IMG/VR virus record: IMGVR_UViG_3300025886_000021
Location: 1-60,968 of that record
Length of the DNA: 60,968 bases
DNA from: a virus
Strand: one strand, 5' to 3'
Numbering within the stretch: position 1 is the first letter of the stretch; each line of letters begins with the position of its first letter. Below are positions 30,862 to 60,947 of this stretch, in pieces. The translations under genes and the position numbers were made by a program. Under the pieces are notes generated by a model. It was not told the origin of the DNA and did not search any database. It was given only the letters and a program-made list of their open reading frames with translations.

Positions 30862-31413
30862 TTACCAATCAATTAATACCAACCGTCCTTGCCAACGCAT
30901 AACATTATCCGTTTTAAAATCTAAATCCAATGCTAAATCACCAGACAAGTTATCCATTTTACCAATATCTGTTTGTAATGCTCTAATAAACGATATCACC
31001 TCTTGATTGTTTTCACGTCCGCCTTCTGCATCCAAATAATCAAATATAGAAACTTCTCCTCCCATGTCTCGTGCATATTGTTTATATAATTTCATAAACT
31101 GTTCTATATTAATAGTGTCATTAACATTTAGCCGGTCTGCCTTAGACATAATATACAACATTTTTTTTTCATTTACATAATATACTGGAATAAAAGTACT
31201 AAACTCAGAATAACGTCCAACTATAGTACTTGCTATATCAAATTCATCTGATTCGGTAGTTATTTTAAAAAGTTTATCTTCTCCATCAATTTCATATACT
31301 CGACCATTATCTCCCTGATCAAAAAAACGAAATTCATTATTTTGTATCTTGTCAAGAAGCTGTTGAATATCCTGCTCTTTTAATTCTGTTAATAATTTCT
31401 TTAATCGTATCAT
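30862..31413 (-). CDS. Tagged minimal kinase-fold protein
   Basis: 183 aa. The N-terminus MIRLKKLLTELKEQ matches the capsid-tag pattern (LTE, LKE). The rest has protein-kinase-like elements in order: a glycine loop DQGDNGRVYEI (G34, G37), a lysine in KLFKIT (K50), a hinge-like MLYIMSKAD (85-93), a catalytic-loop-like DLDFKTDNVM (D165, N170), and LVLIDW, where D182 would be the DFG-type aspartate. The chain ends right after it, so the C-lobe is drastically shortened. The ATG overlaps the stop of the upstream gene (ATGA). It could be an injected kinase or a pseudokinase; the motifs are visible, activity is inferred. Confidence 0.66.
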   Translation of the reverse strand: MIRLKKLLTELKEQDIQQLLDKIQNNEFRFFDQGDNGRVYEIDGEDKLFKITTESDEFDIASTIVGRYSEFSTFIPVYYVNEKKMLYIMSKADRLNVNDTINIEQFMKLYKQYARDMGGEVSIFDYLDAEGGRENNQEVISFIRALQTDIGKMDNLSGDLALDLDFKTDNVMRWQGRLVLIDW

Positions 31414-32984
31414 TTAACTAACTTTTTATCTAAATCTATCCTAACTAAAAAATTAACATCTACATCATTACGTTTTCGAATTGGCTGTGCTAATTTTCCT
31501 ATAGCCAATAATTGACCAATATCATTATATAATCCAATTGTAGTAACATATGGTGCAAAACTACTAGACGCTACAAAACAACGATATGATTCATTATCGT
31601 CTTTTGTAAGACTTGTATTAGTAGACATATTAAATTCTCCTTGATCTAATCTCGCAGTTACGCCTAATTCATGTATTGTAACTGTACTTTGATATGATGC
31701 AGTAAATGGAAAATTCATCATATTATGATAACGATAATCCGTAGTAGAAATAACTCCTATCCCTTGTTTTTCAAAAATATTACCAACTACACCAGTTTGA
31801 ATAAACGCCCCGCCTTCGGTATGATCTGCTAAATATCCAACTTCTACATTTGTTAATGATTTATTATATATTCGTATTTCATCTAATTTACCAGATAAAT
31901 TAAATGACCCAGTTCCAAAACCACCAATATATAAATTATCTGTATTATCAATTCTTGCATCTGATGCAGTTACTGGAGAACATTGGGCTATTAATAATTC
32001 TGGATCAGATCCTGAAGAGTGTATAGTTCCGTCTATATACATGTTCAAAGAACTTCCTGATTTTTCACAAACAACATGACGCCACTGATCTGCTACAATT
32101 GATGATGTTATCTGCATTGAATATTCATTAGTACCAGCAACTGAAAATATAATTTGATTGCTACCACTTAATTCTAATTTAAATGGATATTGTGGTGAAT
32201 TTGAACTAGACGCTTTAGTCATAATCAATTGCGTATCATTTGAACTATTTGCACCAGATATATAAAACGATATAGAATAATTATTATCACGATTATACAT
32301 TCCTGGTATATATTTTTTTATATACGAACTACCAGTAAAATAAGCAGATAATCCAATTGGTAATTGATCTCCATTTGACGCATTTATTCCGTCGACATAT
32401 GTTATATTATTTGATTCATATAAAATTCTAGTAGTATCAAAATATTCATTAAATCCTTCATAAAATTTTACATCAGAAATAATAGAACTCGTATCAAATA
32501 TAGTATCATTAATATTACCATATTCGTCAGATGTAAAAGAAGCAGTATCAGGAACTGACAATGTAAATGAACCTAACTTAATTCCTTCTCCTACTTTATT
32601 TTGTGGAAATGAAAATATACTAGCAGTTTCATATAAATGTTTTTTAATTAAATTTAAATTAGTTTGACCAAAATTATTATAAGGTTGATTTTTATTTTTA
32701 TAATACAAATGATTAACTGAAAAATATATAACACTTTGTAAGCTACCATCAATATTAGCCGCATCATTATATGTTAATTCAGATCCAATCATTGGTAATA
32801 TATTTGTGTCTATATAAACACCTTGTAAAGGTAACATACTACTTGTTAGGCTACCACTAACAACTGTAAAAGTTTTATTAGCTTGAAATGGAGTGATTTG
32901 AATATCCGTAGTATCTATCTTTTTAAATACCGTTGGATATAATCCTTCATATATAGTAGTGTCATTTATTCTAGACTCGGACAT
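31410..32984 (-). CDS. LamG-domain tail protein
   Basis: 524 aa. A concanavalin/LamG-like domain spans about residues 205-385: YSISFYISGANSSNDTQLIM, VADQWRHVVCEKSGSSLNMY, IDGTIHSSG, LYIGGFGTGSFNLSGKLDEI, RIYNKSLTNVEV. The C-terminus TTIGLYNDIGQLLAIGKLAQ then PIRKRNDVDVNF is shared with the adjacent 33047 gene and is a recurring C-terminal module of T4-like tail proteins. LamG domains usually bind glycans, so host-surface or decoration binding is likely. The last gene of the tail block, it is coupled to the kinase-like gene. Confidence 0.78.
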   Translation of the reverse strand: MSESRINDTTIYEGLYPTVFKKIDTTDIQITPFQANKTFTVVSGSLTSSMLPLQGVYIDTNILPMIGSELTYNDAANIDGSLQSVIYFSVNHLYYKNKNQPYNNFGQTNLNLIKKHLYETASIFSFPQNKVGEGIKLGSFTLSVPDTASFTSDEYGNINDTIFDTSSIISDVKFYEGFNEYFDTTRILYESNNITYVDGINASNGDQLPIGLSAYFTGSSYIKKYIPGMYNRDNNYSISFYISGANSSNDTQLIMTKASSSNSPQYPFKLELSGSNQIIFSVAGTNEYSMQITSSIVADQWRHVVCEKSGSSLNMYIDGTIHSSGSDPELLIAQCSPVTASDARIDNTDNLYIGGFGTGSFNLSGKLDEIRIYNKSLTNVEVGYLADHTEGGAFIQTGVVGNIFEKQGIGVISTTDYRYHNMMNFPFTASYQSTVTIHELGVTARLDQGEFNMSTNTSLTKDDNESYRCFVASSSFAPYVTTIGLYNDIGQLLAIGKLAQPIRKRNDVDVNFLVRIDLDKKLVK

Positions 32985-33010
32985 AATAGTAAAAACCTCG
33001 CTATATTTAA

Positions 33011-33019
33011 TATAAATAT
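33011..33019 (-). promoter_or_regulatory. Late-promoter-like element
   Basis: ATATTTATA on the coding strand, 26 bases before the LamG gene. Confidence 0.5.
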
Positions 33020-33046
33020 AACGAGGCTCAAATACCTAATAAAATA

Positions 33047-34318
33047 TTAATAATCTAATTTAACTCGAATCAATGCTTCTCGCTGGAATGATTTCAATAA
33101 TGGTTTCGAAAGTTTAGCTACTGCTAATAATTCTTGTGAATCATTTAATAGTCCAACTGTTGTAATATAAGTTTTAGGATCATTAATAAAAGTAGACTCT
33201 CGTAACAATCCATCGCTTCCTGTAACATATGATGGATTATTAGAAAAATTATATTCTGCATTTTTAATTCTAACAAAATAATGTGTACTAGTAATTTTTT
33301 CTGAATTCCTTGCAAGGAATCCGAATGGGTCACTTGTTACTGGATTTGTTATTTCAGATGACCCAGACACAGAATGAAATAATCGGAAATGATTATTACC
33401 TTCTGAATCAGAACCAGTATTAGTTTGAAAATTCAATTGTTGATCTAACATTTTGCCGTCTAATACTAATGTACCATAATCAGGGTATGCTAATCCATAA
33501 TAAACAGGCGCAGACGAATTATAAATTCCTCCCGCAATAGATCCAGAAACAATATTGTATACATTACCAGCTGGCGTAGCATTTGCATTTGCTAATCCCG
33601 AATCATCAATTAATGAAACAATTACACTACTACTAACTGCTACATTACTACCAGTTGCATTAGCATCTAATGATGCCGACATATATCTTAAAGGCAATTC
33701 AAAATTACCAGCATCTAATCGTTCTTTTAATCGGTTACGTTTAAAATTAACAACATATATAGAATCAGTACTACCACTTCCAGCTGTAGTAAATCTACTA
33801 TCATTTGGTTTTAATAAAAGTTGTCGATATTGTGAATATACTGCTTTTGATGCAATATTTGCTCCAACTCCAGCTGAATCTGAACCACTACCTAAAGCAT
33901 TGCCATATGCAACAGAAAACTGTACAGCACTCCCGGTAGCTGCAGGATCTTTTTGATAGGTATCAACATAATATTGACGTTGTGAATTTGTTTGATCTGA
34001 AGCAGTGAAATACGTAGTTAAACTAGCTAGATTATCACTCCATACACCTGCAGTAACAGTTTCATTTTGATTATCAATTATATCATTTATAGGATCGAAT
34101 TTTGTAAATACACGTCCATTTCTAGATAATAATTGGGATTGATCTCGTTCAGCAATAATTTGATCTGCTAAAGCCCGGGCTAACTTTTGTACTTCTACTA
34201 ATGGTACCGTTGCCGTATTAGTCGCCGCATCTGTTACAGGCGACACAATAGGTTGTACAGGACGATTTGGAGTACCTCCAATTTTTTGTTGTTTTTTAAG
34301 TTGTTTAATATTTTTCAT
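33047..34318 (-). CDS. Tail structural protein with conserved C-terminal module
   Basis: I start at the ATG at 34316..34318 (MKNIKQLKKQQK, 423 aa). An upstream ATG at 34342 would overlap the previous gene and lacks a Shine-Dalgarno. The protein is Ser/Thr/Asn-rich, with segments such as SIYVVNFKRNRLKERLDAGN and HYFVRIKNAEYNFSNNPSYV. The C-terminus ITTVGLLNDSQELLAVAKLS with PLLKSFQREALIRVKLDY parallels the LamG protein downstream and tail proteins of marine T4-like phages. A virion tail or baseplate-associated role is likely. Confidence 0.7.
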   Translation of the reverse strand: MKNIKQLKKQQKIGGTPNRPVQPIVSPVTDAATNTATVPLVEVQKLARALADQIIAERDQSQLLSRNGRVFTKFDPINDIIDNQNETVTAGVWSDNLASLTTYFTASDQTNSQRQYYVDTYQKDPAATGSAVQFSVAYGNALGSGSDSAGVGANIASKAVYSQYRQLLLKPNDSRFTTAGSGSTDSIYVVNFKRNRLKERLDAGNFELPLRYMSASLDANATGSNVAVSSSVIVSLIDDSGLANANATPAGNVYNIVSGSIAGGIYNSSAPVYYGLAYPDYGTLVLDGKMLDQQLNFQTNTGSDSEGNNHFRLFHSVSGSSEITNPVTSDPFGFLARNSEKITSTHYFVRIKNAEYNFSNNPSYVTGSDGLLRESTFINDPKTYITTVGLLNDSQELLAVAKLSKPLLKSFQREALIRVKLDY

Positions 34319-34328
34319 ATTTACTTTT

Positions 34329-35012
34329 TTATGATGCCGCATTTGGTATTGTTGCAGTCGACGCTTTATTTACTGTTAAATTAATTGTTGCAGACCCACC
34401 TGTCTCGTTTCCTACAATTGTAATTGTTGCAGTTTTAGATTCTACTATTAATGTCTTAGCAATAATTCTAAATTCTAATCCAACTAATGCAACACTTTGT
34501 GCGTCTTCGCTATCACCAATAAAACTCGGAGTGGTAGGAAGTACTCCAGTAGCAAATTGAGGATTATTTGTTAATATTTTTGAGACTTGAATATCTGCGA
34601 CAGACGAATCAGATAATATAGCAGTATATCCTAGATTTGCATTACCTCCTTGCAAATTAGCAGTATTAGGTGCTATAACTGCACTAGTGCCAGGCCCTGG
34701 TAATATTATTGAACTATTACCAACTGTTACAACAGGAATATTAGTTGTGTCTTTTGGTAATGAAACTAATTTATATTTTAAAGCTTGTGTTTCATCTGGA
34801 ATTGCTTCTGTAATCGGCATATTTTCAATAATACTTCCATAATAACTAGATCCGCGACCATCTAATGGATTCCATAACGTATAGTCAATTTCATCATCTG
34901 CTAATGCAAATTGTGTAATATTAAATGCGTCGCCTCCCTTTGCTAATAGTTCACGTCCTTTCAATGTAAGTATTGCATCTACCGTTACACTTGAATTGTT
35001 TAAATATCCCAT
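34329..35012 (-). CDS. Tail-associated structural protein
   Basis: 227 aa. The N-terminus MGYLNNSSVTVDAILTLKGR with ELLAKGGDAFNITQFALADD is typical of structural proteins in this neighbourhood of T4-like phages. The remainder is Ala/Thr/Ile-rich and beta-like, ending STATIPNAAS. It lies in tight series with the flanking tail genes, with a weak variant of the late-promoter element (AATAAATAT on the plus strand) upstream. Specific function not recognised. Confidence 0.65.
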   Translation of the reverse strand: MGYLNNSSVTVDAILTLKGRELLAKGGDAFNITQFALADDEIDYTLWNPLDGRGSSYYGSIIENMPITEAIPDETQALKYKLVSLPKDTTNIPVVTVGNSSIILPGPGTSAVIAPNTANLQGGNANLGYTAILSDSSVADIQVSKILTNNPQFATGVLPTTPSFIGDSEDAQSVALVGLEFRIIAKTLIVESKTATITIVGNETGGSATINLTVNKASTATIPNAAS

Positions 35013-35055
35013 ATTGTTTTTCCTTTATTTTAAATAAATATATTTCAATTAGATT

Positions 35056-38000
35056 TTATGTTAAAATAAAACTTCCTTGACTACCCGGATTATTAGTATA
35101 TCTTAATTGATTTGGATTTGTTTGTGTAGTTTCTACAACAGGCCCGCCATCAACTGTATCTAAAGATGCTATATTAAAATTTCTACTAGTCATTTTAGCT
35201 CCACTATATCTTTGATTATCAATACCACGTGGTAAATAATCTTGAACTTCTGCAAATTTTAATATACTGCCAGATCCATATGTTGCTGAGCCATATGCAT
35301 AACTTCCATATGCCGTACCAACAGTATCAAGTATTTGTTTTATTTCTGATAAGCTAGAAGATAATATAACAGGTTGTAATGCATCAGATCTCCAATATGG
35401 AGACGATGCTGTAACATATGTACTTCCAGATCGTATTAAATAATTATATGAATATGTTGTTCCATCATATTTTTCAGCATTAGATGCAGTTAAATAGCCT
35501 TGCATTTGATCGTCATCTTCTGCTTGTAATTCAACAATTGACTCAATAGATCCTTGGTAATATATATATTCTGCGGAACTAGTAGGATGCACTTCTGTTA
35601 TAACGGTTTCATAAGTATTATTAAATCTTTCAACTGTTGGTAAAATTGTGTCTTTACTACGTTCTAATATATTAGGTTGTATTAGTAATCCAGTTAATGT
35701 GTTAGCACGAGCCGGCAATAATTGATCTAACTGATTAAAAAATGATAAATCGAATAATGTAAAAATTCTAATATAAGCATTTATATCATTTGACTCAGAA
35801 TATTTTTTCCAATATTTTTGAGCTCGTTGAATTAAATCAGGATATGATTTTGCATTAATATCACCCGGATCTCCAATATAATCATCTAATGATTGAAATC
35901 CTAGTTGTGCAATAATATCCTCATCTACCATTGTTTGTGGAGAAAAATAAACTCCTAATTTTGCACTATCTAATGGTGCTTTGTCAAATTGACTTCGTTC
36001 GGCTCTTGTTTTAATATCTAATGTGCCAATTAAATCATTATTTTCAAGTCGTACTTTATTATCGTCATATGTCCCAGCACCTAACGAAATTCCATCGTAA
36101 TAATATGTTTCTTCAATTGAATCATATGGTGTGTCATTTGTCCAACTAGCAAACGAAGCAGATATTCCGGAATTATTAGGTTCAACTCCTATTAAACTAG
36201 ACGTTACAGCATGATCTATTTTTTGTGTTAACGGCAATCTAAATACTAGTTCATCATATGCAGATATATTACCATCATATGCTCCTGGAGCTTTTACATG
36301 ATTATCAAAAGCAGAATCTTGTAAACTACTAGTCCATAATCGCAATTCCTGCAGTTGCCCTTGTAATCGACTACCACCCGTAGTGCCACCTAATGTTACT
36401 GTACCAGAAGTAGCAAATGTTGTAGTATCAGATGCAGAAACCGCTGCTACAATTTTTCCATATTTAGATTTTTTAGCAATTACTTCTAAATTTGATCCGT
36501 CTTTTCTTAATAATGCAGTTAACCAATCACCATCAAATAATTCAATTGGACTACTATCAACACCATTAATTTGTATTGTACCAACATTTCCAGATGTATA
36601 ATCTAACGTTACCGTATTACTTCCTATTGTAAACAAATTCATTGTACTAGGAAGTAGTGGATTCGTTATAACATTATCCGTACGGAAACGTAGTTCTACA
36701 GATTCAATTGTCTGATTATAATCGATTGTAACTGTTCCTGCAGAATTATTTATTAAATCTAAAGAATAATCGAAATTAAGTTTTTCATATACAGGCGCAC
36801 GTTCAAGCCTAGGTCCTCCATATTCATTAATACTAATCATAGATTGTGGAATTCCATAACAAGAAAGCAATGCTTGAACACTCCTTTTTGTTCCTTTAGA
36901 TTTCAGTAATAAAGGTAAATTATTTACTATACGTCTCCATATAGTATACATAGATTTTTCTCCAGATACAGATGGATCTCCTATACTATTTGATCCGGTA
37001 ATTGGAATACCTTGCTCATTAATACCTAAAGCATATTGCCATAAATCTTGACCTTGCGCGCCATTTGTTAATGTCCACCCGAATTGTTTTGCAACAGAAT
37101 ATAATAATTCATTTGGCATACCTAGTTTAGGATTTTCTTCACGCTTATTAATTGAAGACATATGATTAATATACGTGTAAAGTATATCATAGTGGTGTCC
37201 TAACATATTAACAAATGTAGTTAATTCAACACTATCATTTTGTAATTGTATATGTTCTGGTACTGTTCGTATTAATGAATTATTGTTCGATATATCATAT
37301 ATTGATGCCGATTCATATACTCCATTAAACCATGTTTCAAATTGACTTGACGATATTGAATATATCGCATATGGTACTGTAGAATTAGATTTAGGAATTG
37401 GTTGTATATAACTACCAGTAACAGTTGCTACATTAGCATCAATAACAGGAATATCATATGTTGTTAATTTTGATGACGATTCATAATAAAGATATTGTTC
37501 AAAATTATCAAATCCTCCAATTAATGAAGTTTTTAAATTAGTATAATCTTGTGAATTAGTCGTAGCATTACTTCCTGATATATCATTTAATGCTATACTT
37601 TGTGAATTATAATATTCAATTAATTGTAATTTATATTTAAAATTAACTAAACGTTCTGTTGCTGAACTATAAAATATAAAATTATTAAAATCAGAATAAT
37701 TTATATTTAATTGCATTCCAGATAAACTACCAGAAAAAAATCTGTCGACTAATTGTTGTGAAGTCGACGTAGATGAGCCTAGTAAATCTGACCAATTTTT
37801 TAATCCAGTTTCTGTAGATGTATTATATGAATAATTTGCTTGCCAATTGGGACCACTTAAAACATTAACAGGTTGCTCTTGTATAATTGGTTCAATATTA
37901 ATATTATCGATATAAGTAGGTTTTAGTTGTTTAACAACCCAACATTTAAAATCTTCTTGTATAGAATCTGGTAATGGTTCGTATAATTTAACATATAAAA

Positions 38001-40579: not shown

Positions 40580-40581
40580 AA

Positions 40582-50446: not shown

Positions 50447-50468
50447 ACATAGTATTTTAATAATCGTT

Positions 50469-50477
50469 ATATTTATA
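50469..50477 (+). promoter_or_regulatory. Late-promoter-like element, plus strand
   Basis: ATATTTATA followed by TAAAAG, 25 bases before the plus-strand ATG at 50503. It has the same orientation to its gene as the minus-strand copies. Confidence 0.6.
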
Positions 50478-50502: not shown

Positions 50503-51483
50503 ATGAAAAATATTTTATCAGAAAATATGCGCAGATTTGGTACTAAGAATTTAACTGAGTCCAACATAAAAAAATTACAAGAACAGGATCCTAAAATAGC
50601 GACAGATATCGCACAGCCAGGTGAAGAAGCCAATCCACTTCCAGATACTCCAAAGAGTCCAGAAAAATTAGTTACCATGTCTGGACCAGACCAAATTAAA
50701 CAACAGCTACAAGGAACGCATAAAGATGCAATTTTATCAATACCGGGATGGGATAAGTTTTTAAAATTAGTGCCTGTTAAAGAAACCACCGCTATGGTTA
50801 TAGATTATGCAGCATTTTCAAATGCATATGCAGCTTATTTGGGCGCTACCAATGGTAGGTTAACAACAATTGAGTCTATTATTGGTAAAAATATTTTCTT
50901 GTTCGTACCTGGTGTTTTTGATAATTATAGTCAAGGTGGGGCATTTAGTGATGCAAATAAAAATGCTAACTTAGTACAATACCTTAAAGGTAATAATATT
51001 GACACTATAATAAAACGAACATATGTTCCCGTTGCTGCTGTTAAATCATTCCATAATGGTGTACATGTATTCCTAAATACAAGAAAAGGTTTTAAAACAG
51101 ACTATTCAGGTAATCCGCAAAATCCGGTATCAACCGATACAGCTCCAGATGGAGATGGCAGTAAACCTGGTGGGACTTCTACATCGTATGGGTCATATTG
51201 GGGTCATAATGGCGAAAAAAGAAGAGGTGGTAATGGTCCAGGTTTGTTAGTACCAATGCAAAGCCCTAGAGCCAATACAAGTTCCGATCAGCAATTAACG
51301 ATCCCAAAAAATGCTGAATTTCGTCTGATGAACTATGGACGCGGAGTCCGAATGAAAATATGGCAAGCGTCAAAAGTTGGATGGGGAAGCAATTGGGAAA
51401 CGTTAATTAACGATTTAAATTCGTGGGATACGATTGCCGGCGGTAATATTACAAATATATACAACGGCAAACAATTAGGTTAA
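50503..51483 (+). CDS. Tagged putative capsid-internal protein, paralogue A
   Basis: 326 aa, one of only two plus-strand genes. ATG with AGGATAAAC upstream. The N-terminal tag MKNILSENMRRFGTKNLTES, then NIKKLQEQD, has three L-x-E sites (LSE, LTE, LQE) and is shared with the genes at 52017 and 59623. The body is not recognised; its C-terminus has a Gly/Arg-rich stretch (WGHNGEKRRGGNGPGLLVPM) and RLMNYGRGVRMKIWQASKVG. I infer a protein packaged in the prohead and processed by gp21. Divergent from uvsE and convergent with an exported-protein gene. Confidence 0.72.
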   Translation: MKNILSENMRRFGTKNLTESNIKKLQEQDPKIATDIAQPGEEANPLPDTPKSPEKLVTMSGPDQIKQQLQGTHKDAILSIPGWDKFLKLVPVKETTAMVIDYAAFSNAYAAYLGATNGRLTTIESIIGKNIFLFVPGVFDNYSQGGAFSDANKNANLVQYLKGNNIDTIIKRTYVPVAAVKSFHNGVHVFLNTRKGFKTDYSGNPQNPVSTDTAPDGDGSKPGGTSTSYGSYWGHNGEKRRGGNGPGLLVPMQSPRANTSSDQQLTIPKNAEFRLMNYGRGVRMKIWQASKVGWGSNWETLINDLNSWDTIAGGNITNIYNGKQLG

Positions 51484-51484
51484 A

Positions 51485-51904: not shown

Positions 51905-51927
51905 AATTTTATCTTTTAATTTATACT

Positions 51928-51961
51928 ATTAATATAAGAAAAAAAATGCAGAAATCCTAAT
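51928..51961 (-). promoter_or_regulatory. Shared 34-base promoter-like motif, copy 2
   Basis: Identical to 50413..50446, 24 bases before the exported-protein ATG, and oriented toward it. Confidence 0.6.
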
Positions 51962-51983
51962 TAGCAGTTTTTTAGTTATACAT

Positions 51984-51992
51984 ATATTTATA
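51984..51992 (+). promoter_or_regulatory. Late-promoter-like element, plus strand
   Basis: ATATTTATA followed by TAAAAGAAACC, 24 bases before the ATG at 52017. The whole leader is nearly the same as that of the paralogue at 50503. Confidence 0.6.
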
Positions 51993-52016
51993 TAAAAGAA
52001 ACCTATAGGATAAACA

Positions 52017-52826
52017 ATGAAAAATATTTTATCAGAAAATATGCAGCGGTTCGGAACCAAAAATTTAAACGAATCCAATATTGAAAAATTAAATGAAAAT
52101 CAGGGTCAGATAAGAATGACCGTAAGCGGCCGAAGGAATAAACAACCAATTGGAGATTTGAATCTCCAAAATAAAGTACAGATACCATATGATACCCGTT
52201 TCGTTACAGATACGGATAGTAGATCGATATCAACATTGGATCCTAAAGTTAAATATGTTAACGCAAATTACACGTTACGAATATACAACAAAACTCTCTT
52301 AAATGAATTTCGACAGCTCACCGGTGGAACTATTATTCTTGATAAATTAGAATTTGTTCCAAATGGAAACATGTTTGGAACATCATTAAATTGGAAAGAT
52401 ACTATAGAATTAAATCAACAAATACCTTTAAGTAAAGGCTCTATGACAACTACTCAAATTCAAATACCAATTCCAGCGCCGAAAGCTGCTGCAAGTCTTG
52501 ATTCGAGTAAAAATAAAGTCAACATTAGTTTTAAAGAGTCAGATGGCGGCAAGAGTCTTGGGATCGATGGAGCTAGATATACCTTAAGAGGTCGTATACA
52601 GTCACGAACGCGAGACCGAGCTACCCTGGTAGCCAATATAGAAAAAGCCATTGCAAGTGGGAAATTAAAAGATACAGATGGCGGTAAAGCTAGAATGGCA
52701 CAATGGGATGCAGCTAATCCTAGTGGCACCAGTGCCGCAACTACTTCTGGAGCATTTTATGTACAAATTCCAGTTAGTCTTTCTAGTATTGCTATTCCAG
52801 TTAGCCCAAGTCAAGGACGTGGATAA
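52017..52826 (+). CDS. Tagged putative capsid-internal protein, paralogue B
   Basis: 269 aa. The leader and the first 20 codons match the 50503 gene (MKNILSENMQRFGTKNLNES, then NIEKLNENQ; L-x-E sites LSE, LNE, LNE), but the bodies differ. The body has repeated-looking basic regions (KYVNANYTLRIYNKTLLNEF, RIQSRTRDRATLVANIEKAI) and ends with SLSSIAIPVSPSQGRG. A terminator follows at 52847..52872. The tag with variable cargo points to a head-internal protein; function of the cargo is unknown. Confidence 0.72.
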   Translation: MKNILSENMQRFGTKNLNESNIEKLNENQGQIRMTVSGRRNKQPIGDLNLQNKVQIPYDTRFVTDTDSRSISTLDPKVKYVNANYTLRIYNKTLLNEFRQLTGGTIILDKLEFVPNGNMFGTSLNWKDTIELNQQIPLSKGSMTTTQIQIPIPAPKAAASLDSSKNKVNISFKESDGGKSLGIDGARYTLRGRIQSRTRDRATLVANIEKAIASGKLKDTDGGKARMAQWDAANPSGTSAATTSGAFYVQIPVSLSSIAIPVSPSQGRG

Positions 52827-52846
52827 TAATATTATATAAACGTAGT

Positions 52847-52872
52847 AAAGCCCCTTAATTGGGGCTTTTTTT
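52847..52872 (+). terminator. Intrinsic terminator after the plus-strand gene
   Basis: AAAGCCCC/GGGGCTTT stem with a TTAATT loop and a following T-run, 20 bases past the plus-strand stop. It could also act on the convergent exported-protein gene. Confidence 0.9.
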
Positions 52873-52886
52873 ATGACCGTAACGTC

Positions 52887-53348: not shown

Positions 53349-53371
53349 AATTCTTTCTTTTAATTTATAAT

Positions 53372-53405
53372 ATAAATATAAGAAAAAAAATGCGTATATC
53401 CTAAT
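53372..53405 (-). promoter_or_regulatory. Shared promoter-like motif, copy 3 (variant)
   Basis: Similar to copies 1 and 2: an AGGATATACGC block, eight T's, then TATATTTATA in place of TATATTAATA. Here the box also matches the ATATTTATA element (53371..53379). Confidence 0.55.
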
Positions 53406-53953
53406 TATTTCTTAACAAATCCTTTCAGAAAATCTTTTTGACGATCTATTGCATTGTCGAGATCTTTTTTTGATGCTTTTGCATTGCTTGTGCGCTTTCG
53501 TGTAGAGCTAGGCTTAGCAACATCTTTGTGTGTAGTGGATGATCTTCGCTTTGTATTTTTTCTACTATTGCTATCATCATTTCCTCCGCCGCTTGAATTG
53601 TCATTTCGCTGCGGATCCTTGTCGCTTCCGGAGTTTTCATAAATTGCGATACTCTGCGGCCAATCTCCGCTTTGTGTTCTGTCGTGGAGTATGAATCCGA
53701 CGTCATATTGAGTTCGATATCCTTTGATTTCGAACTCAATTGGGTATCTGGTGATATAGTCATTTGGGTTGAGTCCCTTTTCGTGGACTTCAACCATGTA
53801 ACTACGGCCCCAACCATTTTCTTTACTGCTTTTAACATAACCTGTCTTTATTTGTCCTAACCATTGAATGATTACCAATTCGCCGGACTTATACATAGCC
53901 TTTTCGAACTGTTTAAGCACATATGCTGGTATTTTATTCTTCTTCTTTGCCAT
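53405..53953 (-). CDS. Basic-tailed small protein
   Basis: 182 aa. The N-terminal 100 residues form a compact, probably beta-rich domain (YKSGELVIIQWLGQIKTGYV, GRSYMVEVHEKGLNPNDYIT). A disordered Ser/Asn-rich linker and a Lys/Arg-rich tail (KNTKRRSSTTHKDVAKPSST, RKRTSNAKASKKDLDNA) follow, likely to bind nucleic acid. A second long frame overlaps it in another phase (53446..53838) but lacks a Shine-Dalgarno. Family unrecognised. Confidence 0.62.
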   Translation of the reverse strand: MAKKKNKIPAYVLKQFEKAMYKSGELVIIQWLGQIKTGYVKSSKENGWGRSYMVEVHEKGLNPNDYITRYPIEFEIKGYRTQYDVGFILHDRTQSGDWPQSIAIYENSGSDKDPQRNDNSSGGGNDDSNSRKNTKRRSSTTHKDVAKPSSTRKRTSNAKASKKDLDNAIDRQKDFLKGFVKK

Positions 53954-54001
53954 TTTAATAAGATTTAATCGATATCGTTATACTGTGTTATTTGGGGCTT
54001 A

Positions 54002-54433
54002 TTAACTAAGACTTACACCTGGTATTTGACCTACTATGGTATATACTCGCAAATACCTGGTAGTTTTATCTGGTTTAAACATTGTTTCGGATTTTTTGTC
54101 CCGACTCATTACATATCCAGACTCCATAAACTTTGTCATCACAATACGAACAGCTTTTAAACTGTTAGACTCGATTAATAAATATTCATCATCAATCATT
54201 ATATCCACTCTATTGGAATGATCTGGAATATCATTTTTTAATTGAACTAATGGCTCATCATTTATATATTCTTCATTGATTTGTGTGAAAAACCCGCCTA
54301 AATCTAATTTAGACTTTGCTGACTGACCTTCGAATAATTGAAAAAAATAATCTACGGCTTCAGAGTCAGACAGATAATCAAAATAACAATATTCTGAATA
54401 ATTAACGTGAATGTTTTTTATTTTGTTGTTCAT
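54002..54433 (-). CDS. Hypothetical protein
   Basis: 143 aa, beginning MNNKIKNIHVNYSEYCYFDY; acidic and soluble. Its start overlaps the preceding gene by 32 bases. No recognised motif. The C-terminus has KPDKTTRYLRVYTIVGQIPG. Confidence 0.6.
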   Translation of the reverse strand: MNNKIKNIHVNYSEYCYFDYLSDSEAVDYFFQLFEGQSAKSKLDLGGFFTQINEEYINDEPLVQLKNDIPDHSNRVDIMIDDEYLLIESNSLKAVRIVMTKFMESGYVMSRDKKSETMFKPDKTTRYLRVYTIVGQIPGVSLS

Positions 54434-54596
54434 GGTCGCTAAGTTTTTTTATAATATACAAATTATCAACTAAATCAATGTCTAATCGTTTAACTAGACT
54501 AACTTTTCTTCGTGCGTCTAACAATCCCGTTGCCTGTACACGACCAATTGGTTCATTGGATGAATCATTTCGAAAAAGGTATACATATGTATCCAT
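54402..54596 (-). CDS. Small hypothetical protein
   Basis: 64 aa, starting MDTYVYLFRNDSSNEPIGRV. A late-promoter-like element lies 10 bases upstream (54607..54615). The segment ATGLLDARRKVSLVKRLD is basic and helical. The overlap with the next gene argues for coupling. No family recognised. Confidence 0.58.
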   Translation of the reverse strand: MDTYVYLFRNDSSNEPIGRVQATGLLDARRKVSLVKRLDIDLVDNLYIIKKLSDHEQQNKKHSR

Positions 54597-54605
54597 ATTT
54601 CTTTA

Positions 54606-54992
54606 TTATAAATATAAACCTAACTCATAAGAACGCTGTATTGTTACCAATGCATCGTCTAATGTTTCCCGTAATCTGTTTATTTCCTGTCTATTTAATA
54701 AAATAGTTTTAGATTTTACTTCAAATTCGAATTTTTCTTCTAAATCTGCCTTATGTGTAGCTCCTCCTAACTTGGTTGCTTTTTTAGCATAGTTAATCAA
54801 GTCTTTGTATCTAAAAGGAATCGAAGTTCCTGCCAATTGTAATGCACCTACATTAGTATTCATTGGATCTGTCTTAAAAGTACCAGCAGAAACTTTGTCT
54901 TTAAAGAAAAAGTCTAAATCTGCCCATGTTGAGCCATACCGGGTTCTAAATTTGCGGCTCACTGACCACGATTGGTTAACGCTTTTTGTCAT
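54606..54992 (-). CDS. Hypothetical protein
   Basis: 128 aa, starting MTKSVNQSWSVSRKFRTRYG. Basic N-terminus, then KDLINYAKKATKLGGATHKA and a C-terminal helix RQEINRLRETLDDALVTIQR. The last codons abut the late-promoter-like element of the next gene. Not recognised. Confidence 0.6.
   Translation of the reverse strand: MTKSVNQSWSVSRKFRTRYGSTWADLDFFFKDKVSAGTFKTDPMNTNVGALQLAGTSIPFRYKDLINYAKKATKLGGATHKADLEEKFEFEVKSKTILLNRQEINRLRETLDDALVTIQRSYELGLYL
54607..54615 (-). promoter_or_regulatory. Late-promoter-like element
   Basis: ATATTTATA on the coding strand, 10 bases before the 64-aa gene. It lies over the last codons of the upstream gene. Confidence 0.5.
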
Positions 54993-54999
54993 TCTTGTT

Positions 55000-55650
55000 T
55001 TATATTTTATAAATTGTTACTGTGTACACGTCTTTTGAGTAATTGTTGCGTAAAACAACGTTTTGATATTTTTCTATGAGCATATCTAACACTAATCCTG
55101 GGTGGACGTAAAAAAACCCGTCATGATGTGTAGTGTTTATTGGATTAAGCAGATTAAATGAAACAACACTTGTTGCATGATTATAAAGTAAATCAATATC
55201 TTCGAATAATTTCTGTAAATCAGCATCTTCTGTTTCACAACGGCGCTGAGTAAACAATCCATTTGCTATAACCCATGATGTTTCTGGTAATTTTGCAACT
55301 TCAAATGCATTTGTTAAGCAATCTATATCATATTTTTGCTTTGCAATATTAGTCATTACCGGATTATGATCAACTCCATGATATGAATATACAGAATCTG
55401 TATAAAATTCATTGATAAACCCATATAAATCTCCTCTACCACATCCTACATCTAATATAGAGTTATTATTCCACCCAATTAATAGATTTTGCATTAAATA
55501 ACGTTGTTCAGCCGTTGTGTTGTATCCAACTGGTATTGGACTATACATCATATAGTCTTCATCATGAACCGTTAATTTATCCCATATATTAAATCTGTCA
55601 GAACTTGACAAATTTTCAGATATCTTGTCTGCTAATTCTTTGTGATTCAT
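55000..55650 (-). CDS. SAM-dependent methyltransferase-like protein
   Basis: 216 aa. Motif I ILDVGCGRGDLYGF (about residues 65-78) and an acidic strand SYHGVDHNPVM are typical of class I Rossmann methyltransferases. No DPPY-type motif was seen, so DNA adenine methylation is not indicated. The substrate is unknown; a protein, RNA or small molecule is possible. The start overlaps the upstream gene by 4 bases. Confidence 0.8.
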   Translation of the reverse strand: MNHKELADKISENLSSSDRFNIWDKLTVHDEDYMMYSPIPVGYNTTAEQRYLMQNLLIGWNNNSILDVGCGRGDLYGFINEFYTDSVYSYHGVDHNPVMTNIAKQKYDIDCLTNAFEVAKLPETSWVIANGLFTQRRCETEDADLQKLFEDIDLLYNHATSVVSFNLLNPINTTHHDGFFYVHPGLVLDMLIEKYQNVVLRNNYSKDVYTVTIYKI

Positions 55651-55925
55651 GATTTTGTAAACGGTAATGATTCAGTTTCTACTAATTCTCGATATGGAAC
55701 TTTAGCTTCAATCGGCCCTCCATTGTCAATTGACAAATTACTAGTAAGACTACGGTTAATTCTTGTCGTATGTTTAGGTGCAGTGGTAATCATACAAAGT
55801 GCACTACGATTTTCCAATAGAACATCATATACTGTTTGCTTGTTTACTTTGTATTGATCAATAACTACACCAACTTTGTTAACATCATCTTGTGTTACTA
55901 TAACTGTTTCTCCTGGATTATACAT
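55647..55925 (-). CDS. Small hypothetical protein
   Basis: 92 aa, beginning MYNPGETVIVTQDDVNKVGV, with KOW/SH3-like beta character (VVIDQYKVNKQTVYDVLLEN). It overlaps both neighbours by 1-4 bases. No family recognised. Confidence 0.62.
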   Translation of the reverse strand: MYNPGETVIVTQDDVNKVGVVIDQYKVNKQTVYDVLLENRSALCMITTAPKHTTRINRSLTSNLSIDNGGPIEAKVPYRELVETESLPFTKS

Positions 55926-56134
55926 TAGTCGATGATTTTAATGATTTTACTATTAGTTACTGCTTTAACTTCAAAGTCAAATGTAACCCCTTGGAAATCT
56001 TTAACGACTTTTGCTTCAGCTTCTGTCACAGACATTGCTTCAACTAAATACATTTCAGTTGCTTTCTTTTCTTTTGTACCGTTTGCGGTATCTGTCAACG
56101 TTGTTAGTTGAACTTTTGCGGTATAATACGCCAT
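55925..56134 (-). CDS. DUF4494-like small protein
   Basis: 69 aa. MAYYTAKVQLTTLTDTANGT, then EKKATEMYLVEAMSVTEAEA and the ending VTNSKIIKIID fit the DUF4494 pattern (xxYLVDAxSxTEAEAxxxxxF), a family I associate mainly with Bacteroidota. Function unknown. This is a useful host clue. Confidence 0.7.
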   Translation of the reverse strand: MAYYTAKVQLTTLTDTANGTKEKKATEMYLVEAMSVTEAEAKVVKDFQGVTFDFEVKAVTNSKIIKIID

Positions 56135-56199
56135 ATTAAATTGATTTTTAAGATTTATAACTTATATATAATATATGAAAAAATATTCAATAACCAAAA

Positions 56200-56472
56200 T
56201 TAATCTTTGTCTAAAAATTTCTGTAATCGTTTTTGATTTCGATGAAATTCAAAAGACTTTCTCATTTGTTTATCAGAAAGATTAAAATTTAATTGCATTG
56301 TATCTAGTATATCAGCAATTAATCGTTCTTGATCATACTTATTAAATGTTTTACCTCGAAGTTTTTTAATAACGCGTTTTAAATGATATATAAAATCTGT
56401 TGGAACTCTTGATAATATTCTAGATTTAGATAAATGAATTTTTATTTTTGAGTCTTTTGAACTTTTTTTTTT
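56200..56472 (-). other. Frame-shifted 3' extension of the tagged 186-aa gene
   Basis: In the -1 frame relative to the gene at 56442..57002, an open stretch of about 87 codons follows a run of ten A's (56463..56472). It ends with TAA at 56200 and has no ATG, GTG or TTG before residue 55 or so. The protein looks real: IHLSKSRILSRVPTDFIYHL, KRVIKKLRGKTFNKYDQERL, LSDKQMRKSFEFHRNQKRLQ. A -1 slip at A-AAA-AAA would fuse it to the upstream protein. A sequencing error in the homopolymer or a decayed gene are alternatives. Confidence 0.6.
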
Positions 56473-57002
56473 GACTTGGCTTTTTCAAATAGAATTTTTT
56501 TTGCAATTTTAGCAGATTCACTTAATAGATCTCCATATTTAACAACATGTGCTAATTCAGGTCCAGGCGGAAGTGGAGCTCCTCCTTCCATATCAGTACT
56601 AGCAGCATCAGCACCATCGGATTTGTCAGAAAATTTATCTTTATATTTTTCAACAGCATCAAGTGGTAATCGTAATTCTATAGTATAATCGGTATTTTGT
56701 CCATATCCGGTATATGGAACTATTTTAACATGTTTACCTCGTACTAAAGAAAGTAAAACTGCCGGAGTGCAACTGTATTGACTGCCAGATCTAGCAATAA
56801 ATTCTCTAATTCCTATATCCGATACAGAATATATTATTCCTACATGTTGCGATCCTGCTTTAGCAAATGAAGATAAGAATTTTTGTTGTGGTTCAGTAAA
56901 CACATCTACTTCATCAGTTTGTTCTGGAGCTGGCGCTTCAGTTTGTTCTGAAATCATTTCACTTAATACATTACGAATTATATTTGTTAATTGTATACTC
57001 AT
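56442..57002 (-). CDS. Tagged protein with poly-A slip site near its end
   Basis: 186 aa in the zero frame. The N-terminus SIQLTNIIRNVLSEMISEQT has two L/I-x-E sites (LSE, ISE), then a Pro/Glu linker. The body (SSFAKAGSQHVGIIYSVSDI, SGSQYSCTPAVLLSLVRGKH) is not recognised. The last codons (KKKVQKTQK) follow the A10 tract that could shift to the -1 frame described at 56200..56472. The start overlaps the histone-like gene stop (ATGA). Confidence 0.68.
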   Translation of the reverse strand: MSIQLTNIIRNVLSEMISEQTEAPAPEQTDEVDVFTEPQQKFLSSFAKAGSQHVGIIYSVSDIGIREFIARSGSQYSCTPAVLLSLVRGKHVKIVPYTGYGQNTDYTIELRLPLDAVEKYKDKFSDKSDGADAASTDMEGGAPLPPGPELAHVVKYGDLLSESAKIAKKILFEKAKSKKKVQKTQK

Positions 57003-57184
57003 ATCTTTTTTGATTCTGCTAATTGTGTGCTTCGGTATTTACTTGCTAATTTTCTAATTTCATTAATAGATTTACGAGCTCTGACACCTGCAGCTTTTAC
57101 TTGTTTTTCTGAAAATCTATTATGGTTATCTTTAAATGTATCCCATAATGACTCAATATCTTCAAATATTTCTTTAGATGTCAT
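56999..57184 (-). CDS. Hc1-like (histone H1-like) small protein
   Basis: 61 aa. FSEKQVKAAGVRARKSINEI with RKLASKYR closely follows the Hc1-like pattern (KxxKAAGTRARKxxxxLKKLAxxxR) of Bacteroidota and of many T4-like phages. Such proteins bind DNA or associate with nucleoid components. ATG with AAAGG upstream; its stop overlaps the tagged gene. Chromatin effects on host or phage DNA are an inference. Confidence 0.78.
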   Translation of the reverse strand: MTSKEIFEDIESLWDTFKDNHNRFSEKQVKAAGVRARKSINEIRKLASKYRSTQLAESKKI

Positions 57185-57200
57185 ATTAACCTTTATTTTA

Positions 57201-57209
57201 TATAAATAT
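57201..57209 (-). promoter_or_regulatory. Late-promoter-like element
   Basis: ATATTTATA on the coding strand, 16 bases before the Hc1-like gene. Confidence 0.6.
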
Positions 57210-57213
57210 GTTG

Positions 57214-57384
57214 CTATACAAAACGATCCATAAATACTAGTATATTTGTATCTGATACTATATATTCTGTTCCGTTATTCATTTCTACGACAACATCTGC
57301 ATCTAATTGATATATCCGTTGTATCAATTGTGTATTAATAAAAACTGTGGTATCTTGAATTGTTATATGAATAAATTTTTGCAT
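57214..57384 (-). CDS. Small hypothetical protein
   Basis: 56 aa, read by eye: MQKFIHITIQDTTVFINTQL, then IQRIYQLDADVVVEMNNGTE and a short end. The start overlaps the stop of the peptidase gene (TAATG), and the TAG stop lies just before the late-promoter-like element. Beta-rich; not recognised. Confidence 0.65.
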   Translation of the reverse strand: MQKFIHITIQDTTVFINTQLIQRIYQLDADVVVEMNNGTEYIVSDTNILVFMDRFV

Positions 57385-59387
57385 TAATCTCTGCTAAATC
57401 TTGGATTATCAATGCGATCCTGATCTATCCATGTTTTCATCGAGTTACGAGACTGTTCCTGCTCTTCTGGTGTAGGAGGTACAAATTTACTCATTGACGC
57501 TCGGAAGTCATGTGCTTTAAAAAATAAATCTCTAACTTGATCTTTGCTTAATTGATTGAGAGCTTTATATAGAGGACGATTTTGACTATAATCTATTTGT
57601 ATGTTTTGTTTTTTAAGATATGCTTCAATAAAACGTTTATAAGCATCATCTTCTTTTGATTGATATGACATACCTCTCATATCTCTGTCTTTTGACATAA
57701 AGTCTTGACGACTCAATTTTTCTTTTTCTGGTTTAGAATATGATCGTAAATCTATGCGATTGGTAATAACATCTGGAATCTTTAACCATGGTGTATCTGT
57801 AAATTCATCAGCAAAGTCAGGACCCATATCATCGTCTGCAGACATAAGTGCTTGAGATTTTTCTGGATCACTCATTGTGTTCCATATTTCTTCTTCATTG
57901 TATTCAAACATTAAAATTCTTGCTCGTTGTGTTTCTTCTTTAAGAATTTTTCTATACAAAGGCCATTGTTCAATCATTTCTTTTAATTCATCAACCGCTA
58001 AATCATTGTTAGTATCAGATTCCATATCTTGCCTTGGGTTTACAGTTACTGTTGGGAAATATTTATACAATGTCTTGTATGTATTTTGTCCTACAATACC
58101 ATCAACAGTTAATTTATTATCTCGTTGAAATTTCTTAACAGCTGTTTGAGTTTCTGATTTAAATTTACCATCCGCTCCATGTTTAGGTAAAATTTTATCT
58201 CCATATAAATTTATTAGTTTCAATTGTATATTTTTTACGTCAGGTCCAGTCGATCCATAACGCAATAATGGTAATTGAGATATTGTTTGCGGACGTTGTG
58301 TGTCAATTTCAGTTTCTTTGTCTGTATTTGGAGTAGTTGTAACATTTACAAACTTTTTCAGCTTCATTATAGGAACTAAGACCGGTCCAGGTTTTAAACC
58401 TGCTACGGCATCTTCTGCAGACATATCTATTTTTTCTAACTCAGCTTTTGTAACTGATGTTAACTTACCACTTACCGGTAAACCATGTTCACGTTGATAT
58501 TTTTTAAGCAAATCTCTTGTTTTTGGACCAAACTTTCCGTCAATACCCGAAGTACCTAATGGTGCGGTAGTGTATAATACTGCTAACTGATTTTGTAATT
58601 TTCTTACAGCTTTTCCACTATCCCCATATTGTAATACATTGGATTTCGTAGAAACTGCATCACTAGCCCCAGGAGTAAGTCTTAAATTTATATGTATATG
58701 ATTACCTTCATCTAATGCCTTATAAGCGTATTTTGATTTTCCGCTATTAACCCACGTTTTAATTGGTTCAAAATATTTGTTTCCTTTTACGATGTTAAGA
58801 TCAACCGCGGTATTCTTAAGGTGCCGAGATATGGTCATTGCAGACTGAGTAATAAATTTTTCTACTTCATCTAATGCCGTAGTCAGATTAGACGGCGAGA
58901 TCGTAGTTGTACCTGGAGTATAATAACTTGAAAATATTTTACTTATTTTGCCACCATTTCGACCGTATAAACCATTAAGATATCCAAATCGATACTGAGG
59001 CTTGCGCCTAAGCCAATTGACATACATTACTCGACCTTGATTATATGGATCTCGATATGCAGAAGTAATATCTACGTCAATACCGAATTTGGTCTTTAGT
59101 TCTGCTTTAAACTTCAACCAAAGTTCCCGGAATTTTAGTTGAACAAATTTAACACCGGTGTAAGTCTTGTTTTTATCTACACCGGCCGGCTCCCATTTTG
59201 ATTCATTTATAATTGGGTTCAAATCATCTTCTATTAATTGTTGTTTTGATTCTGTTAAATAGCTAGAAACCATACTTTTTATTACACCTGCTACTTCTTT
59301 GTCACTCTTACCATATAATGGATGAGCTGGCTGTTTATACCCACTTATAAGTGCTTTAATTTTATCTAGCAATGCTTCTGTAATCAT
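57384..59387 (-). CDS. M15/LAS-type peptidase with two peptidoglycan-binding domains
   Basis: 667 aa. An N-terminal tag-like region (MITEALLDKI, then SSYLTESKQQ near 41-50) is followed by a DD-peptidase-like domain with metal ligands H189 and D196 (SRHLKNTAVDLNI) and H230/H232 (GNHIHINL). Two peptidoglycan-binding repeats follow (about 255-313: LQYGDSGKAVRKLQNQLAVL; about 373-435: LRYGSTGPDVKNIQLKLINL). The C-terminal 230 residues are charged helices of unknown role. It could be an endolysin or a virion hydrolase; the ITE/LTE tags and lack of a lysis operon favour packaging with the virion. The gp5-like hub lacks a lysozyme domain, so this enzyme may fill that need. Confidence 0.86.
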   Translation of the reverse strand: MITEALLDKIKALISGYKQPAHPLYGKSDKEVAGVIKSMVSSYLTESKQQLIEDDLNPIINESKWEPAGVDKNKTYTGVKFVQLKFRELWLKFKAELKTKFGIDVDITSAYRDPYNQGRVMYVNWLRRKPQYRFGYLNGLYGRNGGKISKIFSSYYTPGTTTISPSNLTTALDEVEKFITQSAMTISRHLKNTAVDLNIVKGNKYFEPIKTWVNSGKSKYAYKALDEGNHIHINLRLTPGASDAVSTKSNVLQYGDSGKAVRKLQNQLAVLYTTAPLGTSGIDGKFGPKTRDLLKKYQREHGLPVSGKLTSVTKAELEKIDMSAEDAVAGLKPGPVLVPIMKLKKFVNVTTTPNTDKETEIDTQRPQTISQLPLLRYGSTGPDVKNIQLKLINLYGDKILPKHGADGKFKSETQTAVKKFQRDNKLTVDGIVGQNTYKTLYKYFPTVTVNPRQDMESDTNNDLAVDELKEMIEQWPLYRKILKEETQRARILMFEYNEEEIWNTMSDPEKSQALMSADDDMGPDFADEFTDTPWLKIPDVITNRIDLRSYSKPEKEKLSRQDFMSKDRDMRGMSYQSKEDDAYKRFIEAYLKKQNIQIDYSQNRPLYKALNQLSKDQVRDLFFKAHDFRASMSKFVPPTPEEQEQSRNSMKTWIDQDRIDNPRFSRD

Positions 59388-59626
59388 GTAAAAAACTCTG
59401 CTAATTGTTGTGATACTTTATATGCCTGGTCATCATCCATGCCTTTTGTGGCACTACGATACGCTTTAACTACTTCATTGAAAGCAGATACTACTGCAGA
59501 GTCTGGTTCAAACTCAACTTCATTTAAATTGGCTCGATGTTTTGCTGTTGAGTCAGCAAGTGTCGGTAAGCTCCCATCGGAGTTACGCTCCCAAGCATAT
59601 CCTTCTAGTAGTTGTTTTAGTTTCAT
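59384..59626 (-). CDS. Small tagged protein
   Basis: 80 aa. MKLKQLLEGYAWERNSDGSL has an L-L-E site after a short basic helix, as in other tagged proteins. The remainder (SAVVSAFNEVVKAYRSATKG) is helical. It overlaps the peptidase start and the next gene stop by 4 bases, so the three are coupled. Confidence 0.68.
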   Translation of the reverse strand: MKLKQLLEGYAWERNSDGSLPTLADSTAKHRANLNEVEFEPDSAVVSAFNEVVKAYRSATKGMDDDQAYKVSQQLAEFFT

Positions 59627-60135
59627 TTACTCTGTCCGTAATTGCTATCATACCCCGCTGTATCAGGTGGGGTTGTATTAGGTTCCGTCGCGTACTTCCT
59701 CTTATACTCTGTTTCTGCAAACTTATATGCTTTGGAATTGACTATGCGGTTCCACTGTGATTGGGATAATGTGTTTTCAACCGCTTTTCTAATATCCATA
59801 ATAATGCTTTCTGAAAACCTTGTCGTATTTAAAACCGAAGTTGCATACATCCCTGCATCTGCAGTTTGTGTAGTATCATCTCCTTTCGATAATGCGTCAT
59901 AGTCGACTTGCGTCAAGTTTTCCGCTGCTTTTCTAACCCTAGGGTCACTTTCCTCAGCTGATTTAGTTTTAATATTCTGCAGAGAAGCAGGAGCTTGGTT
60001 CCCATCTCCACCATATTGTTGTAAAGCCATGCGTATAAAATCTAAATTTATATCTCGGTTGTAAGTGCTTTCAATACTTTCTTTAAGATTCTTGGTACCA
60101 AATCTTCTCATGTTTTCTCGTAATATGTTTTTCAT
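59623..60135 (-). CDS. Tagged putative capsid-internal protein, paralogue C
   Basis: 170 aa. MKNILRENMRRFGTKNLKES repeats the tag of the genes at 50503 and 52017 (17 of its 20 residues match 50503), with L-R-E and L-K-E sites. The rest is different: LDFIRMALQQYGGDGNQAPA, AKFxxxxxR-like helical parts and a Gln/Ser/Asn-rich end. ATG has AAAGGAAACA upstream and a late-promoter-like element at 60161..60169. I infer head packaging. Confidence 0.72.
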   Translation of the reverse strand: MKNILRENMRRFGTKNLKESIESTYNRDINLDFIRMALQQYGGDGNQAPASLQNIKTKSAEESDPRVRKAAENLTQVDYDALSKGDDTTQTADAGMYATSVLNTTRFSESIIMDIRKAVENTLSQSQWNRIVNSKAYKFAETEYKRKYATEPNTTPPDTAGYDSNYGQSK

Positions 60136-60160
60136 TGTTTCCTTTAAGGGTTTTATTTAT

Positions 60161-60169
60161 TATAAATAT
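60161..60169 (-). promoter_or_regulatory. Late-promoter-like element
   Basis: ATATTTATA on the coding strand, 25 bases before the tagged 170-aa gene. Confidence 0.6.
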
Positions 60170-60207
60170 AGTACGTTGTAAAAAGAACGCTAGTACGCCC
60201 TTTCAGG

Positions 60208-60678
60208 TCATACTTGAATACGTGCGGCAATTAATGGGGCAACATAATCTAATACAGTAACTTTAGAGCCGTTACTCGAAGCATGGGGGTATTTGTTAGG
60301 AACATCATTTCCTTCAATACCAGCTCCACGATAATCATGTACCGGATGCCTCCACATATTTGCAGCCGGTATTCCTCGAAGTGAAGGCGGCTTATAAGGT
60401 TCAATTGCATATATTTTTTCAGGTTGTATATACGCACTATATGTTTTGGTGTCACTAACCGATCGGCTATACAATATGAGAGCAGCAGGTTTATTTTCTT
60501 CAAGATACTTGATTATGGCTTGCATTTGCGTGTATTTAAATGCTACAACGGTGAATTGAGTCATACCACGTTGTATTCTAGCAGCTTGTTGTGCAACCGA
60601 TTCATATTTTGTTAAACCACTAACAAATACTACTACGGGTTGATTTTGTTCCGTTAATATGTCGGCTAATTTAATCAT
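60208..60678 (-). CDS. Tagged protein with alpha/beta-like domain
   Basis: 156 aa. The N-terminus MIKLADILTEQNQ has an L-T-E site. The body (VVVFVSGLTKYESVAQQAAR, TVVAFKYTQMQAIIKYLEEN, AALILYSRSVSD) alternates strands and helices in an alpha/beta fashion. HPVHDYRGAGIEGNDVPNKY and HASSNGSKVTVLDYVAPLI hold polar residues but no recognised catalytic set. It overlaps the 90-aa gene by 4 bases. Confidence 0.66.
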   Translation of the reverse strand: MIKLADILTEQNQPVVVFVSGLTKYESVAQQAARIQRGMTQFTVVAFKYTQMQAIIKYLEENKPAALILYSRSVSDTKTYSAYIQPEKIYAIEPYKPPSLRGIPAANMWRHPVHDYRGAGIEGNDVPNKYPHASSNGSKVTVLDYVAPLIAARIQV

Positions 60679-60947
60679 ACAGGTTCATATCCAGTTTCTT
60701 CTTCATCCGGGTCATCATATTGTAATCCCGGATCACTTTCAGTGTCGTCATCAGTATCATATGTATCGGGTTCAGCCATGCCATCGGCAGTCCCCGGATG
60801 CAGATGATGATGTTGCCACATATCTTTTACGTCTTCCGGTTCGTCGTCACTAATAGTTATATTTTTTACACGTCGCATTGCGTCGACGGTGATTGGTAAG
60901 CTACCTTCGGCTTTTAATTGGTTCAATATGTCGGCTAATCTAATCAT
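60675..60947 (-). CDS. Acidic tagged protein
   Basis: 90 aa. MIRLADILNQLKAEGSLPIT parallels the tag of the next gene (MIKLADILTEQ). The C-terminal half is very acidic (DTYDTDDDTESDPGLQYDDP) after a His-rich MWQHHHLHPG. Probably capsid-associated by its tag; function unknown. Upstream the window ends after 21 bases. Confidence 0.62.
   Translation of the reverse strand: MIRLADILNQLKAEGSLPITVDAMRRVKNITISDDEPEDVKDMWQHHHLHPGTADGMAEPDTYDTDDDTESDPGLQYDDPDEEETGYEPV

Follow-up and report, generated by a model that had tools for sequence, protein, structure and literature searches.

The stretch of DNA studied here (hereafter the window) is the 60,968-base IMG/VR virus record IMGVR_UViG_3300025886_000021, which comes from a T4-like phage and carries genes in the gp21, gp23 and gp22 positions. 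A gp23-like major capsid protein with a conserved propeptide segment (LLENQARQLVKES) is encoded at 6600..8285 on the minus strand, and the scaffold, in the gp22 position, at 8310..9470 on the same strand, its C-terminal tail NRWKKLAGLIK lying at 8313-8360. The scaffold contains 14 copies of L/I-x-E, the motif after which gp21 of T4 cuts (PMC9026906), compared with 7.9 expected (p=0.014). The gp21-like prohead protease that the first-pass annotation had placed at 10845..11465 (minus strand) is confirmed by a match to Peptidase_S77 (E = 2e-30) and by a sequence alignment in which His85 and Ser140 of T4 are both aligned. The protease itself has L/I-x-E at residues 8 and 20 of its N-terminus, a spacing of 12 that is also the layout of tag A described below, and the N-terminal site is kept in 12 of 13 homologues. 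The neighbouring gene (11467..12267, minus strand) had been proposed to encode tagged cargo, and its translation does begin with MKSFLKQIDE, with a site at residue 10; however, because it adjoins gp21 and has 9 L/I-x-E sites against an expectation of 2.3, its product is probably a prohead core protein rather than tagged cargo. Amid the head and tail genes, 19020-21482 encodes a protein with a nucleotidyltransferase-like N-terminus (FPGGFKPLTGAHLALAQRY) and with relatives in other contigs. The capsid protein of Mel-JY01 (PP395634.1), a phage whose recorded host is Microcystis, is 52% identical to that of the window, and the two phages have the same type of scaffold tail, a likeness that bears on its host record or on the host range of the group.

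Three otherwise unrelated proteins of the window start with the same peptide, which we will henceforth refer to as tag A (consensus MKNIL(S/R)ENM(R/Q)RFGTKNL(T/N/K)E). They are 326 residues (50503..51483, plus strand; tag at 50503-50559), 269 residues (52017..52826, plus strand; tag at 52017-52073) and 170 residues long (59623..60135, minus strand; tag at 60079-60135). The first-pass annotation had read the tag on these proteins as MKNILSEN..NLTE, and all three indeed have one L/I-x-E site ending at residue 7 and another ending at residue 19. The proteins have their first 19 residues in common and little beyond; specifically, BLAST detected the likeness with E-values of 9e-10 and 1e-5, in alignments spanning only the first 29-37 residues. 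The body of the longest protein is weakly related to one tag-A protein in another contig (L072), and the bodies of the other two are singletons.

The idea that all the tagged proteins of the window form one family holds for these three; the others carry generic L/I-x-E leaders, and one protein that had been counted among them (60675-60947, starting MIRLADILNQ) shows no L/I-x-E anywhere in residues 1-60. Among the generic leaders, MIKLADILTE (site at residue 10) begins the protein encoded at 60208..60678 (minus strand; tag at 60649-60678), a homologue of which in G005 starts with MIKLKSILTE; the structural model has an alpha/beta fold with a pLDDT of 74.5, residues 1-10 fall below pLDDT 50, and a fold search with it gave no match at E <= 0.001. 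The leader MKLKQLLE (site at residue 8) is found at 59384..59626 (minus strand; tag at 59603-59626), while the protein at 56442..57002 (minus strand; leader at 56946-57002) has sites at residues 15 and 19, with a site kept in 3 of 6 homologues. A 614-residue protein (28990..30834, minus strand) has the leader MDRFTKIILE at 30805-30834, with a site at residue 10, and also a second, internal tag-like stretch (MNIKLKDLLQEQSKNLINE) at 29776-29832, which may mark a cleavable joint between two packaged proteins. The cargo had further been said to include a kinase-like protein and a peptidoglycan hydrolase. The former (30862..31413, minus strand; leader MIRLKKLLTE at 31384-31413, site at residue 10) is indeed kinase-like and has a leader, which is kept as L/I-x-E in all 4 homologues found; its model (pLDDT 82) is disordered at residues 1-9, and the closest solved folds are APH/choline-kinase-like, with a best E-value of 2.5e-4 and modest TM-scores, mostly of 0.3-0.46. 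By contrast, the tag of the latter, a putative peptidoglycan hydrolase (57384..59387, minus strand) with two PG_binding_1 repeats and M15-like His/Asp motifs recognised by eye, is doubtful: its only early site is an ITE at residue 4, and the next ones lie at residues 46 and 53. Genes on the minus strand had been quoted by their low coordinate (i.e., the 3' end of the gene).

Of the 11 proteins listed at that stage, 9 have a site in translation. The observation of shared tags is real and reaches further than had been noticed. Across the window, L/I-x-E ends at residues 6-14 in 14 of 60 genes, the frequency behind internal Met being 7.4% (p=6e-4); N-terminal shuffles of the same genes left 4.9±2.0 of them with a site, none of 500 shuffles reaching 14. 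We found N-terminal L/I-x-E to be enriched also in 14 further genomes or contigs that were analysed alongside the window (p of about 0.05 or lower) and in T4 (p=0.0045), where this filter picks up the internal proteins, gp24 and Alt. There was no such enrichment in crAss001 (p=0.2) or phi38:1 (p=0.46), both of which lack gp21. Of two relatives that have gp21, RM378 showed no significant excess against internal Met (p=0.65); in Mel-JY01 the excess was likewise not significant by that measure (p=0.23), yet only 3 of 200 shuffles reached it. Homologues of site-bearing window genes had a site in 38 of 85 cases, compared with 30 of 275 for the other genes (p=9e-11, an optimistic value as homologues are non-independent). 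Large tagged contigs (25 contigs picked by size, not randomly) encoded gp21 in 19 cases and gp23 in 18, and the 6 without a detected gp21 are fragments.

A search of IMG/VR with a degenerate DNA pattern for ENMxRFGTKN returned at least 119 stretches and at least 116 distinct copies of tag A, nearly all of them N-terminal and followed by very diverse bodies. Outside the search pattern, and among the matches listed, position P3 of the first site is Leu in 114 of 116 copies, the second site is L/I-x-E in 108 of 116, and conservation stops at the second-site Glu. The codons for the tag vary freely and synonymously (Arg, Gly, Lys), with, for example, six Arg and four Gly codons at invariant positions, which means that selection acts on the peptide. 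Nearly the same DNA pattern gave no tag A match in 257 Gb of GTDB genomes, and a search of isolate phages gave no convincing one. In a 21-protein alignment (e.g., L102:5936-6631) the tag-A leader is longer, at about 50 residues, and has a further L-x-E, its third, near residue 50; the bodies that follow are unrelated. Many tag-A proteins also have an acidic DQNNNGYPDxTE stretch C-terminal to the tag (e.g., in L012 and L068), which by eye resembles the EF-hand-like DWDGDGNQ of 11467-12267.

Relatives of this phage have two further tag families, B and C, which, like the scaffold-tail motif and the promoter-like element described below, lie beyond what the first-pass annotation had noticed. In the consensus of each of the three tags, a spacing of 12-14 residues separates two glutamate sites. 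In scans of IMG/VR, tag B was found in at least 120 stretches and tag C in 77. Among the matches listed, tag B has Glu at the second site in 69 of 92 cases (a position-specific count) and Met within 15 residues in 89 of 92; in tag C, P3 is L/I in 59 of 60, and most contexts then run I/L-T-E or similar. Tag C had a single, internal chance match in GTDB genomes, in a GC-rich actinobacterium. The nearest isolate, Flavobacterium phage immuto, whose capsid protein is 55% identical to that of the window, has no tag A; tag B is present on four of its proteins (at 1803, 103806, 117631 and 118632) and tag C on two others (at 25061 and 111675). Its laboratory host is Flavobacterium sp. LMO8.

At the level of sequence, tag C contains the motif found at the C-terminus of the scaffold that the phage itself encodes. 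This motif, R[MWFY]xxLAG[ILV] in its loose form, ends the scaffold of the window and those of its relatives and is present in tag C, not in tag A. Among 2,241 ORFs from 15 genomes or contigs we counted 37 copies, 21 near the N-terminus, 16 at the C-terminus and none internal, whereas shuffles gave 0.15, 0.05 and 1.15, respectively. Scaffolds ending in a tail of this type adjoin gp23; the tail of the adjoining ORF is of the RWKKLAGLL type in tag-A phages and mostly of the ARMQKLAGI type in tag-C phages. In a ranking of all C-termini by their likeness to tag C, the top place went to a scaffold tail or to another LAG/IAG-tailed protein in all 14 genomes examined. We also asked whether tag A copies the scaffold tail or another head protein, and rejected both ideas: the phage's own scaffold tail ranks 25th of 63 in the window, and no match stood out across three genomes. 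Two large proteins (L308:16471-19251 and L191:512-2929; 805-926 residues) have the motif at or near both ends.

The proteins behind the tags are highly diverse. Among the matches listed, tag A or C is found on 194 distinct proteins; 177 of their bodies, taken past residue 60, form 115 clusters (84 singletons) and the 87 tag-B bodies 32 clusters, so that the proposal of varying cargo behind a fixed tag in related phages is strongly borne out. These clusters were recounted from residue 60, initial tag-A clusters of 26 and 21 members having been joined partly by extended leaders, not by bodies. Searches of 94 cargo representatives against Pfam and PHROGs gave single marginal matches only (E of about 1e-3 or weaker). 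The median net charge per residue is -0.018 for tag A cargo, equal to the background, and -0.061 for tag C cargo, compared with +0.055 for IPII/IPIII of T4. A few ORFs have two tags or an internal tag, an arrangement that would fit joined proteins which are later cut apart.

We consider it very probable that the tags are a new, multi-family type of T4-like capsid-targeting propeptide, whose cargo is loaded into the head and cut by a gp21-type protease. A tag would take its protein into the prohead core during core assembly, with tag C likely docking by imitation of the scaffold tail; the gp21-type protease would then cleave the tag behind its L/I-x-E sites and release the cargo inside the head, where it would remain with the DNA and from where it may enter the next host. 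Packaging and cleavage of the tagged proteins are strongly suggested by the sequences, their injection into the host is plausible, and anti-host or anti-defence roles of the cargo are speculative. The best-surviving alternative, which we nevertheless regard as rather unlikely, is that the tagged proteins are themselves scaffold-like parts of the prohead core that are cut and then mostly lost, or kept structurally, and are not host effectors. In T4, core proteins are substrates of the same protease and are for the most part removed (PMC9026906), and a role in the core would agree with the scaffold-tail motif in tag C, with its presence at both ends of some large proteins and with cargo that is not basic; it is hard to reconcile with bodies that are extremely diverse and often confined to a single contig, which poorly fits a fixed structural role. 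Moreover, the proteins resembling a kinase and a peptidoglycan hydrolase look enzymatic, though their leaders are generic or doubtful and not tag A.

Promoter-like elements were found upstream of all three tag-A genes of the window: TATATTTATA at 50468..50477 and at 51983..51992 (both plus strand), upstream of the genes starting at 50503 and 52017, and TATATTTATAA at 60160..60170 (minus strand), upstream of the gene at 59623-60135. The core TATTTATA lies upstream of 65 of 128 tag-A genes, compared with 244 of 1772 genes. Elements like TATATTTATA are also found ahead of portal, sheath, tube and neck genes, as well as some non-structural genes, and from their placement are probably the late promoter of this phage group; across tag-A phages, leader-site genes were not clearly richer in the element (p=0.055). 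The T4 late promoter TATAAATA was looked for 5' of tagged genes and is rare there, the common element TATTTATA being its reverse complement. Tag-A genes have both the element and an upstream T-run in common, and the DNA upstream of the gene at 50503 is to a large extent the same as that upstream of the gene at 52017. Such shared 5' ends, together with the mosaicism of leaders and bodies, would be expected of a recombination platform (i.e., promoter and leader DNA that aids gene swaps, encoding a peptide with no role in packaging), but we find this explanation improbable, given that residues are fixed while synonymous codons vary, that L/I-x-E is retained with P2 free, and that the scaffold-tail motif is found at C-termini too. 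Slightly less probable still is that the tag addresses a target other than the head (tail, membrane or host factor) and that L/I-x-E is incidental, as might be suspected from tag A having no clear match in head proteins: against it stand the fixed positions of the two sites, the co-occurrence with gp21, the finding that two gp21-less phages have no N-terminal enrichment, and the presence in tag C of the scaffold-tail motif.

If the tags are indeed capsid-targeting propeptides, a simple sequence search lists hundreds of candidate virion-packaged proteins, most of them without a known family, and a T4-like group common in environmental viral contigs packages tagged cargo on a scale far beyond that of T4. 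Tag C suggests a concrete route by which such tags are recognised, namely imitation of the scaffold tail, and immuto, as an isolate with tags B and C, makes the idea testable now. A broader reading, to which we assign about an even chance, is that many unrelated proteins are loaded through a copy of the scaffold tail (tag C) and at least two other tags (A and B), which would amount to a natural modular delivery system with a cargo repertoire that can be read from metagenomes.

The principle of a T4-style propeptide is known, and what appears from the sequences to be new are the tag families A, B and C, one of them with the scaffold-tail motif. In the open-access literature, a full-text search found no paper with RFGTKNL, and further searches listed none on tags A-C. 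The internal proteins characterised in T4 act against restriction enzymes of the host. In that phage, the ten N-terminal residues of IPIII are enough for targeting, and the internal proteins co-purify with gp22 (PMC9026906), while Ip1-3 have the leader alone in common and block distinct GmrSD enzymes (PMC12373910). The leader of IPI-IPIII (MKTYQEFIAE|A) resembles our tags in being a short L/I-x-E leader on unrelated, variable cargo of a gp21 phage (PMC9026906, PMC3012670, PMC12373910). However, tags A, B and C are dissimilar to it in sequence (by inspection), are about twice as long and have two sites; they also come in several families, one a scaffold-tail copy, and their cargo is not basic. 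The tags share with T4-type capsid-targeting propeptides their position as leaders of unrelated proteins, their L/I-x-E end and the presence of gp21 in the same phage, and they fall outside the T4 internal protein family, showing neither homology to MKTYQEFIAE (by inspection) nor small basic proteins behind them. The head propeptides of SPN3US and phiKZ are likewise N-terminal and thought to target proteins to the prohead, and a gp21-related protease takes them off, in some cases with cuts at several sites (PMC5694885), but they are mostly longer than 100 residues and belong to virion proteins of giant phages, and the cleavage motif of phiKZ is S/A-x-E (PMC9026906). Finally, in engineered loading of P22, cargo is fused to a truncated scaffold that keeps its C-terminal part (PMC9962691), and tag C resembles a natural version of this arrangement; the P22 fusion is engineered and uses an unrelated scaffold, whereas tag C is short, usually forms the N-terminus of its cargo and is flanked by protease sites.
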